The notes under the pieces were generated by a model. It did not search any database. It saw only the letters and a program-made list of their open reading frames with translations, and had not been told where the DNA came from. Of a stretch of DNA of 64,000 bases, positions 32,458 through 64,000 are shown piece by piece. Both the position numbers and the translations under genes were made by a program. Numbering within the stretch: the first letter of the stretch is position 1; each line of letters starts with the position of its first letter. The DNA comes from Acidimicrobiales bacterium (GTDB lineage Bacteria; Actinomycetota; Acidimicrobiia; Acidimicrobiales; Bog-793): assembly GCA_035294085.1 (NCBI GenBank), contig DATGLP010000023.1, positions 62,001-126,000 of the forward strand, in the 5' to 3' direction.

Positions 32458-34197
32458 GTGACGGTCGCGCTCCCCGCGCCGGAGACGGCGATCGCGGCGG
32501 CGCGCTCGGCCGTGTGGCTCGCCGAGGCCGCGCACGCCGGGGAGCCGATGCCCCCGCTGCGCCGGCGGCGCGAGCCCGGACGGCCGCTCAGCGTCACCTA
32601 CCTCATGCCTCGCACGGACGTCGGCGGCGGCGCGCGCGTCCTGCTCGAGCACGCGAACCACCTCAGCGCCCTCGGCCTGTCCGTCACCGTCGTCGCGCAG
32701 GGACCGCCGCCGGACTGGTTCGGGCTGCGGGTCCCCTTCGTCTCCGTCGGCTACGGCGAGCCGCCCGCGGACGCGATCCCGCCCTGCGACCTCATCGTCG
32801 CCGGCTACTGGGACCTCGTCCTGCCGGCGCGACGGCGCGCCATCGCCCCCGTCGTGCACTTCGAGCAGGGCGACTTCCACCTCTACGAGCAGCTGCCGCC
32901 GTCGGTGCGCTCCCTCGTCGGACCGTTCCTGTGGGCCGCGGACGACACGATCGCCGTCGGGCCAGCCGCGCAGGAGGCGCTCGCCGAGCGCTACGAGGTG
33001 CGCGCCGGGCGCGTCGCCAACGCCGTCGACGTCGAGCGCTTCTACCCGGCGCCGCGGCGCCCCGGAGCGACGCCGACGGTCCTGTTCGTCGGCTGGGACG
33101 GCACCGAGTTCAAGGGGATCGCCGACGCCCGCGCCATCGCCGCCGGGCTCGCTCGGTCGCACCCGGCCGCCCGCGTCGTGTGGGTCACCCCCCGGCCGCC
33201 GTGCCACGGCCCGCTCGGCGAGACCGTCGTCGACCCGGACGCCGACCGCCTCGCCCGCCTCTACCGGGAGGCCGACGTCTACGTGTGCGTCTCGCGCTAC
33301 GAGTCCTTCCCGCTCCCACCGCTCGAGGCGATGGCCTCCGGCGCGGCGGTCGTCTCGACCGCCAACGGCGGGATCGCCGCCTTCGGCCGGCACAACGAGA
33401 ACTGCCTCATCGTGCCCGTCGGCGACGTCGCCGGGCTCCTCGAGGCGACGCGCCGCCTCCTCGACGACGAGCCGCTGGCGAACCGCCTGCGCTCGGCCGG
33501 CCTCGCCACCGCACGCGCGCTGTCCTGGCCGGCGATCGCCCGCGAGGTCGCCGGGCGCTACGAGGCGCTCGCCGGCCGCGCCGAGGTCGAGCCGCCCCTC
33601 GGGGAGTTCGACCTCGAGCTCGAGGGCCTGCGCTTCTGCCGCCCGGGCGACGAGGCGCGCCTGCGGGACCGCCTGCGCGCCTGCGCGACGAGCGAGCTCG
33701 CCGTCCCCGTCTCGCAACCCGCGGCCCTCGGGCACCGCGTCGTGCGCTGGCGCGTGATCGCCCGGCGCGACGAGGGGGTGCCGGGCGTGACCCGGGCCTA
33801 CCTCCCCCTGCGCAGCGACGAACCGCTCGGCGACGCCCCCTACCAGCCCGCCCTCGCCGCGCTGCGCGCCGGCCGCCCGCAGCGAGCGCTCGGCGACCTC
33901 CTCGAGCGCTGCCGCGGCGCGCCCCGCGCCGAGGAGGCGGTCCTCGGGCGCTGGATCGTCCTCGCCCTCGTGGGGTGCGGGCAGGTCGCCGAGGCGCTCG
34001 AGACGGCCGGCGCGTTCGCGAGGGACCACCCCGGGCATCCCGACTACCTCTACCTCGCCCTCGCGTGCGCTCGGGCGGGAGGGATCCCCGGTGGGAGCGG
34101 TCTCGCGGCGGCGGTCGCCGCGATCAGGGCGGGCGCGGCCTTCGACGAGTGGTTCGACGACCCCGCCGGCCTGCTGCGCGTCGCGCTCGCCGCCTGA
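32458..34197 (+). CDS. GT4-type glycosyltransferase with C-terminal module of unknown function
   Basis: 579 residues. The GT-B fold has an N-terminal half beginning LSVTYLMPRTDVGGGARVLLEH (about 43 on) and a C-terminal donor-binding half (TVLFVGWDGTEFKG, then YESFPLPPLEAMASGAAVVST with the E-x7-E-like region). From about 375 a second module starts; its core VTRAYLPLRSDEPLGDAPYQ and the TPR-like tail ending DPxxLL recur in the glycosyltransferase at the right edge of the window. The GTG at 32458 has GAGGAG seven bases upstream. A flagellar-type promoter and the adjacent flagellin gene suggest a role in flagellin or envelope glycosylation (inference). Confidence 0.8.
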   Translation: MTVALPAPETAIAAARSAVWLAEAAHAGEPMPPLRRRREPGRPLSVTYLMPRTDVGGGARVLLEHANHLSALGLSVTVVAQGPPPDWFGLRVPFVSVGYGEPPADAIPPCDLIVAGYWDLVLPARRRAIAPVVHFEQGDFHLYEQLPPSVRSLVGPFLWAADDTIAVGPAAQEALAERYEVRAGRVANAVDVERFYPAPRRPGATPTVLFVGWDGTEFKGIADARAIAAGLARSHPAARVVWVTPRPPCHGPLGETVVDPDADRLARLYREADVYVCVSRYESFPLPPLEAMASGAAVVSTANGGIAAFGRHNENCLIVPVGDVAGLLEATRRLLDDEPLANRLRSAGLATARALSWPAIAREVAGRYEALAGRAEVEPPLGEFDLELEGLRFCRPGDEARLRDRLRACATSELAVPVSQPAALGHRVVRWRVIARRDEGVPGVTRAYLPLRSDEPLGDAPYQPALAALRAGRPQRALGDLLERCRGAPRAEEAVLGRWIVLALVGCGQVAEALETAGAFARDHPGHPDYLYLALACARAGGIPGGSGLAAAVAAIRAGAAFDEWFDDPAGLLRVALAA

Positions 34198-34307
34198 GGG
34201 GCGAGCCCGGCGCGAGCCGTCGCCACCACGGCCTCGATCGGCGGCCCCGAGCCGGCGTCGCGTGCCGCTCGAGCGCGCTCGCGCCGGCGCGGTGCCCGGA
34301 CGCGAGG

Positions 34308-34334
34308 GGGGGAGGGGCGCCTCGCCCCTCCCCC
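34308..34334. terminator. Strong hairpin between convergent genes
   Basis: Perfect 11-bp inverted repeat GGGGGAGGGGC / GCCCCTCCCCC with loop GCCTC, in the 162-base gap between the convergent glycosyltransferase and flagellin genes. No T-run follows on either side, as is common for actinobacterial terminators. Confidence 0.7.
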
Positions 34335-34359
34335 GCCCCCCGTGCCCGGGGCGGCTCGC

Positions 34360-35184
34360 TCAGATGAGCTTCAAGGCCAGCTGCGGGAGCTGCTGCACCT
34401 GCGCGAGCACGGCGACGCCGGACTGCTCGAGGATGTTGAGCGACGTGAACTGCGAGGTCGCTGCGGCGATGTTCACGTCGACGAGGTTCGCCCGAGCGGC
34501 CGTGAGGTTCTGCTGGGCGACGGTGACGTTGTTCGCCAGCACCTGGATCTGGTTCTGGGCGGCGCCGACGGAGGCGGCCGAGGAGGCGAGCGAGTCGATC
34601 GCAGCCTGGACCGCCGACATCGCCGCGACGGCGGAGGCGACGCTCGTGATGCTCAGGCTCGTGAGGCCGAGCGAGGCCGCGGTCGTCGTCGGCAGGCCCA
34701 CGGTCACCTGGTCGTTCGCGGAGTCGGTCGGGCCGATCTGGAACGTGAGCGTCCCGTTCGTCCCGTTGAGCAGCTGGATGCCGGCGAACTCCGACGAGTT
34801 CGCGATCTGCGTGAGCTCGTTCGTGAGCGCCGTGAACTCCTGCTGGTCCGCGTTCGACGCGGTCGTCGAGTTGGACGTCGAGGAGTTCGCCGCCTGCGTG
34901 GCGAGCGCGTTCATCTGCTGGAGGATCGCCTCCTGCTGGTTCATCGCGCTCTGCGCCGTCTGGAGCATCGAGACCGCGGTCTGCGCGTTCGAGCTCGCCG
35001 CCTGGTAGCCGTTGATCTCGAACTGCAGGGACTGCGCGATCGAGTACCCAGCCGGGTTGTCCGCCGCGGTCTGGATCTGCAGGCCCGAGCTGAGCTGCGA
35101 CACGACCTGCGAGAGCGCCGCGTCGGTGCTGTTCAGGTTGTTCTCGGCGCCGAGGGCGGCGAGATTGTCGTTGATCGTCAGCAT
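34360..35184 (-). CDS. fliC: Flagellin
   Basis: 274 residues: only the conserved N-terminal (MLTINDNLAALGAENNLNST, then LSSGLQIQTAADNPAGYSIA) and C-terminal (QNQIQVLANNVTVAQQNLTAARANLVDVNIA) D0/D1 helices with a short Ser/Thr-rich middle, so no D2/D3 domains. Many Ser and Thr residues in 95-120 and 140-190 could accept glycans. No Cys. Strong AAGGAGG ribosome-binding site; a sigma-28-like element lies 53 bases upstream. It is on the strand opposite to the operons for the rest of the flagellum. Confidence 0.95.
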   Translation of the reverse strand: MLTINDNLAALGAENNLNSTDAALSQVVSQLSSGLQIQTAADNPAGYSIAQSLQFEINGYQAASSNAQTAVSMLQTAQSAMNQQEAILQQMNALATQAANSSTSNSTTASNADQQEFTALTNELTQIANSSEFAGIQLLNGTNGTLTFQIGPTDSANDQVTVGLPTTTAASLGLTSLSITSVASAVAAMSAVQAAIDSLASSAASVGAAQNQIQVLANNVTVAQQNLTAARANLVDVNIAAATSQFTSLNILEQSGVAVLAQVQQLPQLALKLI

Positions 35185-35195
35185 GTCGTGTGGTC

Positions 35196-35214
35196 CTCCT
35201 TGACGGTGCAGGAG
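35196..35214 (-). promoter_or_regulatory. Hairpin that can mask the fliC ribosome-binding site
   Basis: In the fliC leader CTCCT pairs with AGGAG of the Shine-Dalgarno, leaving a nine-base loop. GGA motifs occur in the Shine-Dalgarno itself and upstream at ATGGAAGG. In Bacillus the hag leader has two CsrA sites, one over the Shine-Dalgarno, controlled by FliW; both proteins are encoded at the end of this island. Confidence 0.5.
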
Positions 35215-35236
35215 CCTTCCATGGCCCCGCGAGTCA

Positions 35237-35263
35237 TTACGGACGTGGCGGCGGCGCCCTTTA
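35237..35263 (-). promoter_or_regulatory. Sigma-28-like promoter of flagellin
   Basis: On the minus strand TAAA (35263-35260), exactly 15 bases, then GTCCGTAA (35244-35237). Matches five of eight positions of GCCGATAA, with a perfect -35. Distance from the end of the -10 box to the fliC ATG is 52 bases. Confidence 0.7.
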
Positions 35264-35268
35264 GCCCC

Positions 35269-35295
35269 TTCACCGCCGCTGCTCGCCGGCCGTTA
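35269..35295 (+). promoter_or_regulatory. Sigma-28-like promoter of the large glycosyltransferase gene (weak -35)
   Basis: GGCCGTTA (35288-35295) with TTCA 15 bases upstream (35269-35272). The -10 is identical to that before flhA, the -35 is off consensus. It points at the GTG at 35305, only nine bases after the -10, so the transcript would be nearly leaderless. Confidence 0.45.
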
Positions 35296-35304
35296 GCACC
35301 CGCC

Positions 35305-38300
35305 GTGACGTCCGAGCCCCCGGGTGCGCGCGCGAGCGGGACGGAGCCGCTCGTCTCGCTGTGCATGATCGTGAAGGACGAGGAGGGCGAGCTCGCACAG
35401 GCCCTCGCCTCGGCGACGGGCCTCGCCGACGAGGTCGTCGTCTACGACACCGGGTCGAGCGACGGGACCGTGGCGCTCGCGCGCCGCCTCGGCGCCAGGG
35501 TCGTCGAGGGCTACTGGGACGACGACTTCTCGCGGGCGCGCAACGCTGCGCTCGGCGAGTGCTCCGGCGAGTGGGTCCTGTGGCTGGACGCCGACGAGAG
35601 CGTGACCGGGGACTTCACGCGCCTACGGGAGCGCCTCGCCGCCGAAGGACGCGTCGACGCCCTCCTCGTGTCGATCGAGTCGCTCGAGGGCGCCGGGCTG
35701 TCCGGCCGGCTCGCCTTCCACGCGACGCGGCTCTTCCGGCGCCGCGCCTGCCGGTGGCTCGGCGCCCTCCACGAGCAGGTGGTCCGCCGCGCCGACGCGC
35801 AGCTCCCGGTGGCCGGCATGGCGAGCGAGGTGCGCATCCTCCACCGCGGCTACACCGCCGCCTCCCAGCTCGACCGGCGCAAGGTCGAGCGGAACCTGAA
35901 GATCGCCCGGCGCGCGCTCGACGAGCAGGGAGGCGACGGCGCCGCTCGGGCGATCGCCCTCGTCAACTACGGTCGGACGCTGTCCGCGAGCACCCGGGCC
36001 GACGAGGCGATCGCGCCGCTCGAGGAGGCGGCGGCGTGCACCGACAACCCCACCATCCGGCGCCAGGCGCTCCAGACCCTCGTGCGAGTCCAGGTCGGGC
36101 TGGGCCGCCTCGACGAGGCGCTCGCGACCGTCGACGAGCTGCGCGACCACTCGACGAGCCAGGTCACCGCGGACGTCCTCGAGGCGCGGGTGCGGCTCGA
36201 GCGCGGCGAGCTCGTCGAGGTGCTCGAGATCACCGACCGGGTGCCCTTCCTCGAGCTCGACGACGACGGGTTCGAGGGAGGGCGGAACCTCGTCGCCTGG
36301 ATGCGGGCGCGCGCGCTGCGCGGCCTGGGGCGCCCGTCCGAGGCGGCCGACGCCCTCCTCGAGGGCATGCGGACGCACGGGATCCTCGACGAGCCGCTCT
36401 CGAGCGTCTGCGACCTGCTCGAGCAGGCGCGCCGCTCGCCGGCCGAGATCGCCGACCACGTCCGACCCGAGTGCGTCGCCGTCGTCGCCGCGGCCGCGAC
36501 CCGCCTCGAGCCGTCCCGAGCCGACGCCGTCCTCAGCGGCCTCGCGCAGCGCTTCCCCGAGCGCGTCGAGGTCCTCGCCGCGGCGAGCGTCGTGGCCGGC
36601 GAGCTCCCCGTCGCGCGCGCCCTGTACTGGTCGGCCCGCCTGCGCGAGCGCGGACTCGCCGACCCGTGCCCGCTCGTGCGCATCGCCGGGCGCGCCGGGA
36701 TCGAGCCGGTGGTGCGACTGCGCGCCGCGGCGGCCGCCTACGGTGCCTTCGCCGAGGAGCGGGTGGTCGCCGCCGCGCGCGCCGCGCTCGGCGACCTCGA
36801 CGCGGCCGGACGCACCGGTGCACTCGAGGACGTCGCCCAGCTCTCGCCGGCGCTCGCGCGGCTCCTCGCGTCGGGCCGCCGGACCGCCGCGCTGCGCCTC
36901 GCCCGGGACGCGAGGCGCGCGCCCGGCTACCTCAGCTGCTCGACCGCCGACGGCGGGGACCTCGTCGCCGACCCGAGCGCGCTCCCCCTCCCCGACGGCG
37001 CCTGCCACCTCGCCGTCGTCCCCGACCTGCTCTGCGGGCTCGGCGACGACGACCTCGACGCGGCGCTCGACGAGCTGCGGCGCGTCCTCGCCGACGGCGC
37101 GCGCCTCGAGGTGCGCGTCCCCAACCTCGAGCACGTGGCGCGCCAGGTCCTCGCCGACGGCGACGTCGAGCGGGCGCTCACCGCCCTCTACGGGCCCGGA
37201 CGCTTCGGGGCGCCCGACGCGCCGGGGCGCAACCGGACGGCGTTCAGCGCCTCGACGCTCGCAGCCCTCCTCGAGGGCGCCGGCTTCACCCTCGAGTCGC
37301 TCGAGGCCGGCGCCGAGCTCGTGGCGCGCGCCCGCCGGGCGGAGCTGCGCGAGCGCCGCTGCGACAGGCCGGCCCCGCTGCTGAGCGTCGCGTTCGTCGC
37401 GAGCGACGGGGACGGTGAGCGCCTCGCGGCGAGCCTGGACTCGCTCGCGAGCGAGCGCGCGGTCGCCTTCGAGCTCCTCGTCCTCGCGAACGGACCATCG
37501 GCCCGGCTGCGCAGCGTGCTCGACGCGGTCGCGCTGGACGTCTCCCGGCTCGAGAGCGAGGCACGCCTCTCCTTCGGGCGGGCGGCGAACCTCCTCGTCC
37601 GGGCCGCGCGCGCCGAGCTCGTCGTCCTCGCCGCCCCGGGTGTCGCCTTCGCGCCCGGGGCACTGGCGGCGCTCGTGCCGGCCTTCGAGGACGGCGACGT
37701 CGCGGGCGGCGCACCGCTCGTCGTCGACGCCGAGGGGGTCGTGCGCGCCACCGGGCTCGAGCTCGGCGCCGATCCCGACCGACCAGTCCTCTCGTGCCGC
37801 CCTCGCGGCGCCCTCGCCCGGCGCGACGCCGAGGCGGTCGTCGCCCCGAGCGACGTCGACGCGCTCGTGCCCGGGTGCCTCGCGCTGCGGCGCTCGGCGC
37901 TGTCGCACGCCGGCGGCTTCGGCGCCCGATACGACGAGCTCGACGCGGTCGTGGACGTCTCCCTTCGCCTGCGCGCGCTCGGCTGGCGGCTGCGCTACGT
38001 CCCGAGCGCCGTCGCGACGGCGCCCGCCCTCCCGACGGAGGTCGACGCGAGCGAGCGGCTCGCCCGGCGGTGGGCCTCGCACCCGCTCCTCCCGCGACAG
38101 GTACGCGCGCCGCTGCGCCGCAGCGAGCTCCTACCCCAGAGCACCCTCGTCGATCGGGTGATGGTGGGCAGCGGCCAGCTGCGCGTGCCGCCGCCCCGCC
38201 CCGGCGGCGTCAACCTCGTCGGCCGCTTCGACGCGTCCGGGGCTGCGAGCGGGCGCGCCCAGCGCCTCGGCGAAGCGCTCGCGTCGCTCGGGGTCGCGAC

Positions 38301-39291
38301 CGCCCGCCTGCACTGCGGGGACGGCGCCGTGCGCCCGGTCGGCGGCGACGAGCCGCTCGCCTACGACACGACGCTGTTCTGCCTCGACCCCGCCGAGCTC
38401 TACGCCTTCCTCGCCGTCGTGGGCCTCGAGTCGCTGCGCGGGCGCTACACGATCGGCACGTGGCACTACCCCTTCGTCGAGCCCGCCGGCGACTGCGCCG
38501 GCCTCGCCCAGATGACGAACGAGCTGTGGGTGCCGAGCGAGTCGGCGCGTCGCGCCCTCGCCGCCGTGAGCGCGAAGCCCGTCCTGCGCATGCCACCGGC
38601 CATCGCCTGCCCCCGCCTTGCCGAACGCCACCGCGACGGCGCGACGTTCGTCGTCTCGGCCGTCGCGCAGCTCGGCACCGGCTCGGCCGGCGAGATCGCC
38701 CGTGCGAACCCGACGGGCGCGATCGAGGCCTTCCGCGCGGCCTTCCGCCGCGGCGAGGACGCCGTCCTCGAGCTGCGCCTCGAGGGCGACAACACGGCGC
38801 GCGCGCTCGACGCCTGCGAGGCGGCCGCGGACGGCGACCCGCGGGTTCGCCTCCTCGCCGAGCCCGAGCCCGCAGGCGCAGCGCTCGAGCGGGGCGACTG
38901 CTTCCTCGGCCTCCAGCGCGCCTCCGCCTTCGAGCACCCGATCGCCGAGGCGATGGCGGCCGGCGTCCCGGTCGTCGCCGTCGCCCACGGCGGGCCGAGC
39001 GAGTACCTGCGGTCGGACAACGCCGAGAAGGTGGCCTTCTCGCTCGCGAGGACGACGAAGGCCCATCTGCCCTACCCGATCGGGGCGCCGTGGGCGGAGC
39101 CCGACGTCGCCGACGCGGCACGTCGTCTCCGCCTCGTCTTCGACGACCCGGCGCGCGCCCGGACCAAGGCGCGGCGCGCGAGGGCCGCGATCGCGAGCCG
39201 CTACGCGCCGCGCGTCGCCCACGGGGCGATCGGCGCCCGGCTCGCGGCGATCGCCGCGGCGCTGCGCGGCGAGGTGCGCGCCGCGGGCTAA
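35305..39291 (+). CDS. Giant multi-domain glycosyltransferase (GT2, TPR, methyltransferase-like, GT2, GT4)
   Basis: 1328 residues. Domains in order: GT2 with SLCMIVKDEEGELAQALAS at the start and DXD in LWLDADES near residue 93 (about 14-200); TPR-like helices (about 210-530); a COG4627-type methyltransferase-like segment (LPLPDGACHLAVVPDLL to ARLEVRVPNLEHVARQVL, about 539-676) without an obvious GxGxG SAM loop; a second GT2-like domain (about 692-909); and a GT4-like domain (about 968-1328) with RASAFEHPIAEAMAAGVPVV. The GTG at 35305 is the earliest start before the GT2 core. Stop TAA forms part of the next promoter. Neighbour of flagellin; a role in building a flagellin glycan is inferred. 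Confidence 0.8.
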   Translation: MTSEPPGARASGTEPLVSLCMIVKDEEGELAQALASATGLADEVVVYDTGSSDGTVALARRLGARVVEGYWDDDFSRARNAALGECSGEWVLWLDADESVTGDFTRLRERLAAEGRVDALLVSIESLEGAGLSGRLAFHATRLFRRRACRWLGALHEQVVRRADAQLPVAGMASEVRILHRGYTAASQLDRRKVERNLKIARRALDEQGGDGAARAIALVNYGRTLSASTRADEAIAPLEEAAACTDNPTIRRQALQTLVRVQVGLGRLDEALATVDELRDHSTSQVTADVLEARVRLERGELVEVLEITDRVPFLELDDDGFEGGRNLVAWMRARALRGLGRPSEAADALLEGMRTHGILDEPLSSVCDLLEQARRSPAEIADHVRPECVAVVAAAATRLEPSRADAVLSGLAQRFPERVEVLAAASVVAGELPVARALYWSARLRERGLADPCPLVRIAGRAGIEPVVRLRAAAAAYGAFAEERVVAAARAALGDLDAAGRTGALEDVAQLSPALARLLASGRRTAALRLARDARRAPGYLSCSTADGGDLVADPSALPLPDGACHLAVVPDLLCGLGDDDLDAALDELRRVLADGARLEVRVPNLEHVARQVLADGDVERALTALYGPGRFGAPDAPGRNRTAFSASTLAALLEGAGFTLESLEAGAELVARARRAELRERRCDRPAPLLSVAFVASDGDGERLAASLDSLASERAVAFELLVLANGPSARLRSVLDAVALDVSRLESEARLSFGRAANLLVRAARAELVVLAAPGVAFAPGALAALVPAFEDGDVAGGAPLVVDAEGVVRATGLELGADPDRPVLSCRPRGALARRDAEAVVAPSDVDALVPGCLALRRSALSHAGGFGARYDELDAVVDVSLRLRALGWRLRYVPSAVATAPALPTEVDASERLARRWASHPLLPRQVRAPLRRSELLPQSTLVDRVMVGSGQLRVPPPRPGGVNLVGRFDASGAASGRAQRLGEALASLGVATARLHCGDGAVRPVGGDEPLAYDTTLFCLDPAELYAFLAVVGLESLRGRYTIGTWHYPFVEPAGDCAGLAQMTNELWVPSESARRALAAVSAKPVLRMPPAIACPRLAERHRDGATFVVSAVAQLGTGSAGEIARANPTGAIEAFRAAFRRGEDAVLELRLEGDNTARALDACEAAADGDPRVRLLAEPEPAGAALERGDCFLGLQRASAFEHPIAEAMAAGVPVVAVAHGGPSEYLRSDNAEKVAFSLARTTKAHLPYPIGAPWAEPDVADAARRLRLVFDDPARARTKARRARAAIASRYAPRVAHGAIGARLAAIAAALRGEVRAAG

Positions 39292-39315
39292 AGCCGGGCC
39301 GCCGAAGCGCCGTTA
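39289..39315 (+). promoter_or_regulatory. Sigma-28-like promoter of the flgB operon
   Basis: TAAA (39289-39292), 15 bases, CGCCGTTA (39308-39315), then GG. The -35 TAAA contains the TAA stop of the preceding glycosyltransferase gene. The -10 ends 84 bases before flgB. Confidence 0.7.
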
Positions 39316-39399
39316 GGTGAGCGGCAACTGGGGGCGCAGGGACTGCGCCCCCGCGGCGGCCACGGACGGCCTCGTCGCTGACACCGTCTGGAGCCGCGC

Positions 39400-62613: not shown

Positions 62614-62898
62614 GTGCTGACCGTGACGCGAGCCGTCGGCGAGCGCATCTTCATCGGCGACGACATCGTCGTCGAGGTGCGCGCCGTGCTCGACTCCAAG
62701 CAGGTGCGCATCGCGATCGAGGCGCCCCGCCAGGTGCCGATCCGGCGGGCCGAGATCGTCGACGCCGTCTCGAGGGCGAACCTGCGCTCGCTCGCCGCGA
62801 CGGGCGACGCCGCCGCCCTCGCCGCGGCCCTCGAGCCGGGTGCTCAGCGCAGCTCGGCCTCGAGCAGCGAGAGCGGGTCCTCGAACCACTCCTCGTAG
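62614..62898 (+). CDS. csrA: Carbon storage regulator CsrA, C-terminally extended
   Basis: 94 residues. Residues 1-60 (LTVTRAVGERIFIGDDIVVEVRAVL, QVRIAIEAPRQVPIRRAEI) form the RNA-binding beta dimer. The last 25-30 residues are Ala- then Ser-rich and are longer than usual; the 3' 55 bases overlap the convergent glycosyltransferase. Represses translation at GGA motifs; flagellin is the likely target. GTG start with GGGCGAGGG upstream. Confidence 0.9.
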   Translation: MLTVTRAVGERIFIGDDIVVEVRAVLDSKQVRIAIEAPRQVPIRRAEIVDAVSRANLRSLAATGDAAALAAALEPGAQRSSASSSESGSSNHSS

Positions 62899-64000
62899 CG
62901 GGCGCCGTTCCCGAGCACCCGGAGCGCCTCCGTCGTGCCGAGCACGTCGTGGGGCCGCCTCGCGGCGCGCGCCGCGACGAGCTCGAGGTAGAGGTAGTCC
63001 GGGTGCGCCGGGAAGTCGCGCGCGAAGGCGGCGGCGAGGTCGGCCGCCTCCCCGGCCCGCCCCGAGGCGAGCAGGGCGAGCACCACCCAGCGCCCGAGGA
63101 CCGCCTGCTCGGGCCGGGCAGCCGCCTCGCAGCGCCGGGCCAGGTCGGCGAAGGCGCCCGCGCCGTCGCCCTCGGCGAGCAGGTCGATGGCTGCCTGGTA
63201 GGGGGAGTCGGCGAGCGGGAGCTCGCTGCGCAGCGGCAGGTAGGCGCGGGTCACCCCCGGCGCCCCGGCCTCGTTCGTCGCGACCACCTTCCAGCGAACG
63301 ACCCGCAGGCCGGCCACGGTGGGGCACGACAGGGGCAGGGCGAGCAGCCGGCTGGCGAGGGCGTCGAGGCGGACCTCGAAGCGCTCCTTGTCGCCCTCGC
63401 GGGTGAAGGTGGCGCCCCCCAGGTCGGCGTGCACCGGCGCGGGCGCCTCGAAGCGCTGGGCGGCGGCGACGGCGCGGTAGTGGCGGGCGAGGAGCGCCGC
63501 GGCGCGCCGGGAGCTCGAGCGCCGGGCGCTTCGCGCCGCACCGGCGCCGAGGCGCCGGGCGAGGCGAGCGTCCTCGAGCAGGCGCGCGACGCTCGCGGCG
63601 AGGCGCTCGACGTCGCCGAGCGGGGCGAGGAGACAGTTCGACCCGTCGCGTGCGACGTGGCGGATGCCGGGCGTGTCGGTGACGACGACGGGCGCGCCGC
63701 ACGCCATCGCCTCGAGCACCCCGATGGCGAGCGACTGGTAGTCGCCGGGGGCGAGGACGGCCGCCGCGCGCCGGTAGAGGGAGGGGGCGGCAGCGCCCTC
63801 GAGCGGCACGGCCACGCCCGGCAGCGGGGTGCTCGCCGCGAGGCGCTCGCTCACCGCCCAGACGACGGCGAGGTTCGGGTGCGCGGCGCCGAGGCGGGCG
63901 ACGACCGCGCGCGCGTCGTCGAGGCGGTCCGCGTCGGCCCCGGCGCCCGCCAGGACGACGACGTGCCCGGCCGGCTCCTCGGCGCCTGGATGGAAGCGCT
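62844..64000 (-). CDS. GT4-type glycosyltransferase with the shared C-terminal module (runs off right edge)
   Basis: At least 385 residues visible. The frame is open to the window edge (from RFHPGAEEPAGH), so the start lies outside. The GT-B donor half is clear: SLAIGVLEAMACGAPVVVTDT and GSNCLLAPLGDVE. It is followed by the module seen at 32458-34197: VTRAYLPLRSELPLADSPYQ, LGRWVVLALLASG, FPAHPDYLYLE and WFEDP near the end. Convergent with csrA, overlapping it by 55 bases. Confidence 0.82.
   Translation of the reverse strand, partial: RFHPGAEEPAGHVVVLAGAGADADRLDDARAVVARLGAAHPNLAVVWAVSERLAASTPLPGVAVPLEGAAAPSLYRRAAAVLAPGDYQSLAIGVLEAMACGAPVVVTDTPGIRHVARDGSNCLLAPLGDVERLAASVARLLEDARLARRLGAGAARSARRSSSRRAAALLARHYRAVAAAQRFEAPAPVHADLGGATFTREGDKERFEVRLDALASRLLALPLSCPTVAGLRVVRWKVVATNEAGAPGVTRAYLPLRSELPLADSPYQAAIDLLAEGDGAGAFADLARRCEAAARPEQAVLGRWVVLALLASGRAGEAADLAAAFARDFPAHPDYLYLELVAARAARRPHDVLGTTEALRVLGNGARYEEWFEDPLSLLEAELR

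Follow-up and report, generated by a model that had tools for sequence, protein, structure and literature searches.

A probable flagellin glycosyltransferase of Acidimicrobiales that appears to have turned from a multi-step into a one-step enzyme while keeping a triple-pseudoenzyme tail

Introduction

The flagellin glycosyltransferases that we met in the literature have one or two functional parts. In Listeria monocytogenes, GmaR transfers GlcNAc to flagellin; it is encoded by a flagellar gene and consists of an N-terminal GT2 transferase domain, TPR repeats proposed to recognise flagellin, a linker and a MogR-binding antirepressor domain (PMC9638930). FlmG of Caulobacter crescentus, whose interaction with flagellin was detected by two-hybrid analysis, is likewise modular, with an N-terminal TPR region, a C-terminal OGT-type transferase domain and no extra modules (PMC7591256). 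In type B strains of Clostridioides difficile, separate genes beside fliC encode GT2-family enzymes, one of which joins a GT2 domain to a methyltransferase domain (a named Pfam domain, PF08241) and adds two rhamnoses (PMC5207246).

Here we analyse a locus of an Acidimicrobiales bacterium in which flagellin adjoins a fusion glycosyltransferase, P0001, of a family in Acidimicrobiia that varies its modules around a constant core. P0001 shares with GmaR a homologous GT2 domain with intact motifs, a TPR array after this domain and a flagellar link, whereas three enzyme-like modules appear to take the place of the linker and MogR-binding domain of GmaR (PMC9638930). It resembles FlmG in combining a TPR region with a glycosyltransferase domain, but its catalytic domain belongs to GT2 (PF00535) and not to the OGT type (GT41). 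It resembles the C. difficile enzymes in its family and its place beside fliC, but its methyltransferase match lies below the Pfam cut-off and lacks motif I. The new element is the tail, in which three enzyme modules appear to have been silenced together and retained. In the open-access literature that we searched, we found nothing relevant on pseudo-glycosyltransferases in flagellin glycosylation, and nothing relevant on flagellar glycosylation in Acidimicrobiia.

Results

Gene order and promoter elements

The source genome is a 2.42 Mb draft in 31 contigs with a completeness of 95.7%, and its closest named relatives are metagenome-assembled genomes labelled Acidimicrobiaceae (Actinomycetota). 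In the window, that is, the whole stretch of 64,000 nucleotides that we analysed (G+C 75%), the GT4 glycosyltransferase gene P0002 (32458-34197, + strand) is followed by fliC (34360-35184, - strand) and by P0001 (35305-39291, + strand), which starts with GTG and forms a head-to-head pair with fliC. P0001 has 1328 aa and was assigned as a fusion flagellin glycosyltransferase from its Pfam matches and full-length homologues. The original prediction had placed fliC between a GT4 glycosyltransferase and a 1328-residue fusion, and we confirmed both this arrangement and the coordinates of all three genes. Downstream of P0001 lie flgB, fliE, fliF, fliG and fliI, named from their translations, several of which served as search queries. 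The flagellin (274 aa) has D0/D1-type ends and matches PF00669 (4.3e-30), PF00700 (1.9e-15) and NCBIfam flagellin models; as had been predicted, it is short and has a Ser/Thr-rich centre, with 33% Ser+Thr at residues 96-190 vs. 17% and 13% in the two flanks.

The -10-like octamer GCCGTTAG, a candidate sigma-28-type -10 element of this lineage, occurs in five copies in the window (0.51 expected), all on the + strand: before P0002 (32364), before P0001 (35289-35296), before flgB (39309), before flhA (55842) and before the probable flgN (59233). A two-part pattern of the type TnAA-N14-17-CCGWTA has four sites in the window (about 0.03 expected), namely before P0002 (32344-32371, + strand, TCAA-N16-GCCGTTAG), fliC (35237-35263, - strand, TAAA-N17-CCGTAA), flgB (39289-39316, + strand, overlapping the 3' end of P0001) and flhA; the pattern was framed on the sites of P0002, fliC and P0001, and those of flgB and flhA are independent of this framing. 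The element before P0001 ends 8 bases 5' of its GTG, a position that suggests a leaderless transcript. The -35 element of P0001 is weak (TTCA), which makes its promoter less certain than that of P0002. The prediction of flagellar-type promoters for both neighbours of fliC thus holds for the GCCGTTAG element, present before both genes, but less well for the -35 element of P0001. In most relatives, no match to the window-derived pattern was found upstream of fliC, and we therefore did not extend the pattern to them.

Association of the core with flagellin

The core of P0001 (GT2 domain and TPR-like array) was compared with the occurrence of flagellin in 35 genomes of the family and in 148 genomes of the order, where the first 520 residues of P0001 served as the query. 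Within the family, the core was present in 16 of the 16 genomes with a full flagellin match and in 0 of the 17 genomes with no flagellin match, two genomes (G015 and G025) having only weaker or partial flagellin-type matches. The independent marker FlhA was found in 18 of the 35 genomes, which are the 16 genomes with the core plus G015 and G025. Within the order, the core was present in 22 of the 35 flagellin-positive genomes vs. 0 of the 113 flagellin-negative genomes (Fisher p ~ 1.5 × 10−17, uncorrected for kinship). The core gene and fliC are transcribed divergently, about 130-930 bases apart, in 14 of the 16 family genomes with the core, and in the remaining two the best core and fliC matches are on separate contigs. 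Where contigs reach far enough, fliC adjoins the core gene in nearly all loci, in Acidimicrobiia as well as in Cellulomonas, Sanguibacter and Kineococcus.

The original prediction of a flagellin glycosylation locus would have failed had homologues of P0001 occurred mainly in non-flagellated relatives; the opposite was observed, and the co-occurrence and the adjacency to fliC exclude that outcome for this sample. Taken together, the adjacency conserved across Actinomycetota, the occurrence in flagellated genomes only and the relation to GmaR give good support to a GmaR-like flagellin glycosylation locus, in which P0001 very probably attaches a sugar to flagellin.

The core of P0001

The core catalytic GT2 domain (residues 15-208; 35347-35928, + strand) is of the GmaR/SunS type by phmmer, structure match and motifs. 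It matches PF00535 above the cut-off (residues 18-116) and retains the motifs DTGSSDGT, WDDDFSRARN and WLDADE. By phmmer, the best PDB sequence match of P0001 is GmaR (22ao_A, E = 1.9e-21, residues 13-207), followed by SunS-type enzymes; GmaR gave no match outside these residues, an absence from the listing that is not proof that the antirepressor domain is missing. The confident AlphaFold2 model of residues 1-530 (pLDDT 93, pTM 0.88) shows a GT-A domain with an extended array of helical repeats. SunS and ThuS (7msp, 7msn, 7msk) are the closest solved fold to the GT2 domain and adjoining helices (Z 24-26; SunS 7msp_A, Z 26.1 over 276 residues), with further matches to other GT-A enzymes and to TPR proteins, including O-GlcNAc transferase; GmaR is not among the structural matches listed for the core, an absence that does not speak for a different fold. 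SunS and ThuS are peptide S-glycosyltransferases that act on bacteriocin peptides and, unlike P0001, have no tail. With the SunS model TIGR04195, P0001 scores 50.2 bits, below the equivalog cut-off of 350. The TPR-like helical array (residues ~209-525; 35929-36879, + strand), supported by the model and by TPR folds among the structural matches, was absent from the domain list of the original prediction; it is probably the flagellin-binding part.

The DXD motif is present in 82 of 85 aligned core domains, and DTGS is also conserved. The three exceptions are the second core copy of L096 and a fragment in L031, both without the aspartates, and a misassigned fragment in L024. In L096 (G076:C191, 7187-12001, + strand), the second copy directly follows the intact one and has FVLWLEAGES where others have DXD; it may itself be a pseudoenzyme.

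Motif loss in the tail

The five-module architecture of P0001 occurs in 7 genomes from five genera (G000, G005, G008, G018-G020 and G032), with full-length homologues in G005, G008 (L003), G018, G019, G020 and G032 (L004). Two metagenome-assembled genomes of a sister lineage, L005 and L006, have the same five modules plus an N-terminal GT2 module. We compared the catalytic motifs of the three tail modules between these groups. In the methyltransferase-like module (MT, residues 526-690; 36880-37374, + strand), PF08241 scores 19.4-19.5 bits against a cut-off of 21.2, and NVGSGDD/NIGSGDD and VLEH of L005/L006 correspond to RLARDAR and LLCG in P0001; SAM motif I is lost, and P0001 has no recognisable SAM site. 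In the second GT2-like module (GT2b, residues 691-930; 37375-38094, + strand), which matches PF13641 above the cut-off (residues 697-924), LNNDT/LNSDT and NEDVDLC correspond to LAAPGV and DAVVDVS, with loss of DXD and ED. In the GT4-like module (GT4c, residues 945-1320; 38137-39264, + strand), which matches PF13692 above the cut-off (residues 1139-1238), RKNP and SEGFGLTLAEAMA of L005 correspond to RANP and SAFEHPIAEAMA; the phosphate-binding lysine of RK and the first Glu of EX7E are lost and the second Glu is kept. The losses in MT, GT2b and GT4c are found in 7 of the 7 clade genomes, with replacement residues that differ among members, whereas the motifs of L005 and L006 are intact where readable. 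The intact sister state comes from these two genomes, and that of the GT4 site from L005, since L006 ends inside the GT4 module. The Pfam scores follow the same division: the tail of L005 scores 100 bits (GT2), 39.8 (methyltransferase) and 37.6 (GT4), whereas no clade member attains the methyltransferase cut-off, and most have weak GT2 and GT4 matches or none. Misalignment was rejected as the source of the motif loss, as P0001 has no alternative GxG or DXD at the right place and the neighbouring columns align well.

In a tail model of moderate confidence (pLDDT 76, pTM 0.51), GT2b is predicted to keep the GT-A fold (6p61_B, Z 21.1 over 183 residues) and GT4c the GT-B fold (SenB 8rz3_B, Z 24.5 over 311 residues), the structural matches covering these two modules. 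Structural prediction and inspection of the DXD and SAM sites had been proposed as checks of the original prediction; the former returned intact folds for GT2b and GT4c, and the latter intact motifs in the first GT2 domain only. Of the predicted domains, the two GT2 and one GT4 are above the Pfam cut-offs, and the methyltransferase stays below its own. The analysis does not support the further proposal that the fusion could, as a single polypeptide, build a methylated or branched glycan, because three of the four enzyme-like domains have lost their catalytic motifs throughout the clade; by its motifs, only the first domain looks active. Since some glycosyltransferases function without DXD or with an altered EX7E, the word inactive is used here as a deduction from motifs.

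History and constraint

The core tree (59 rows) unites the seven genomes in one clade (100/100), which is joined to L005, L006 and L007 at 100/99. The most parsimonious account starts from an active ancestor with five modules and places a single loss of the three sites on the clade stem, after which the descendants kept the tail as they diversified into five genera. The tails are open over about 800 codons in 7 of 7 clade genomes. As saturation of dS left most pairwise dN/dS estimates unusable, we turned to a codon model. Within one genus, omega was 0.05 for MT, 0.09 for GT2b and 0.07 for GT4c, vs. 0.03 for GT_N and TPR; across the seven genomes, it was 0.11, 0.17 and 0.15, respectively, vs. 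0.05 for GT_N and 0.10 for TPR. These values are rough because synonymous sites are saturated, but they are still far below 1. Identity to P0001 among relatives is 16-45% in the tail vs. 54-65% in the core GT2 domain.

Discussion

From the computed adjacency, co-occurrence, homology, motif states, phylogeny and constraint, we infer an acceptor, a donor, a non-catalytic role for the tail and a role for P0002. P0001 would be a cytoplasmic flagellin O-glycosyltransferase whose GT2 domain modifies flagellin before export, moving one sugar, by analogy with GmaR presumably GlcNAc, to central Ser/Thr residues of the flagellin that the adjoining gene encodes, while the TPR-like array holds the acceptor. 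The tail modules would descend from a working enzyme chain that extended and methylated the first sugar and that still exists in the sister lineage; having lost their catalytic residues and kept reading frame and constraint, they would now be non-catalytic parts, most likely acting in acceptor binding, positioning or stability. We thus read P0001, from its sequence, as a flagellin transferase that once catalysed several steps and now catalyses one, with a triple-pseudoenzyme tail retained, and we give the whole explanation (a GmaR-like one-sugar flagellin O-glycosyltransferase with a retained non-catalytic tail and P0002 as a possible extender) a probability of about 70%. More tentatively, and at somewhat less than even odds, the three dead modules may form a conserved platform, derived from the ancestral glycan assembly line, that has acquired another function, for instance in binding flagellin or the attached glycan, in controlling the choice of sites or in coupling modification to export.

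Four enzyme-like domains in a single chain could instead form a fully active assembly line, in which the tail extends and methylates the sugar of the core through altered active sites. The canonical motifs of L005 and L006, the predicted preservation of the tail folds and the GT2-methyltransferase protein of C. difficile type B with its two rhamnoses (PMC5207246) would fit such an enzyme, but SAM motif I, DXD, ED, the first Glu of EX7E and the RK lysine are all missing in 7 of 7 clade members and no clade methyltransferase reaches the Pfam cut-off; on this motif loss we reject it for P0001 and consider it unlikely. Nor is it probable that the tail is a functionless, decaying remnant on a working transferase and heading for loss: it evolves faster than the core and some relatives lack a tail of this type, but all seven genomes, from five genera, have kept about 800 open residues, with omega values well under 1 and GT-A and GT-B folds that are predicted to be intact.

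The core shares its GT2 fold with cell-wall glycosyltransferases such as TarS and RmlT, and P0001 might act on the cell wall or on another secreted protein, with fliC as a neighbour by chance. Chance adjacency was rejected because the core co-occurs with flagellin, and this occurrence in flagellated genomes only, the conserved position beside fliC, a flagellin transferase as the best PDB match and the flagellar-type -10 element before P0001 make another target highly improbable.

Within the preferred reading of P0001 as a one-sugar flagellin transferase, P0002 (579 aa, PF00534 6e-18, with an extra C-terminal region) may add a further sugar to the flagellin glycan, given its intact EX7E (ESFPLPPLE) and good flagellar-type promoter; of our proposals, this one is the least secure. 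Homologues of P0002 occur in 10 of the 35 family genomes, of which 9 are flagellated and the tenth is G013 (L138, 47%), a genome that yielded neither flagellin nor FlhA; the enzyme family is therefore not strictly flagellar. The candidacy of P0002 as a dedicated flagellar enzyme is weakened by this homologue and by several flagellated genomes without P0002. A paralogue of P0002 with 44% identity (62847-63998, - strand, continuing past the window; G000:C23:124850-126547) adjoins csrA and fliW, and in its EX7E region, QSLAIGVLEAMA, the first Glu is replaced by Gln.

Among the relatives, the core (GT2 and TPR) is constant and the surrounding modules vary, some proteins lacking a tail of the P0001 type and others adding an N-terminal GT2 or a C-terminal GT2, GT4 or GT4-GT4, up to 2569 aa (G072). 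Such module changes are a readable record, in which the surface glycan may lengthen or shorten as domains are added or silenced in one protein, and they would allow sequence-based prediction of whether a species carries simple or complex flagellar glycans; the retained dead modules are also a test case for the roles of pseudo-glycosyltransferases. Because relatives show degenerate flanking modules at other positions, these fusions may generally evolve through decay of the modules that flank an intact core, and by the motifs the module that decays differs between lineages. L115-L123, from a different lineage of this family, have a degenerate N-terminal GT2, and most of them keep EX7E in the C-terminal GT4. 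The 2569-residue protein L127 (G072:C4, 4943-12649, - strand), which adjoins fliC, consists of GT2, core, TPR, GT2, two GT4 and further GT2 modules, and catalytic motifs are also missing from its N-terminal GT2 and its second GT4.
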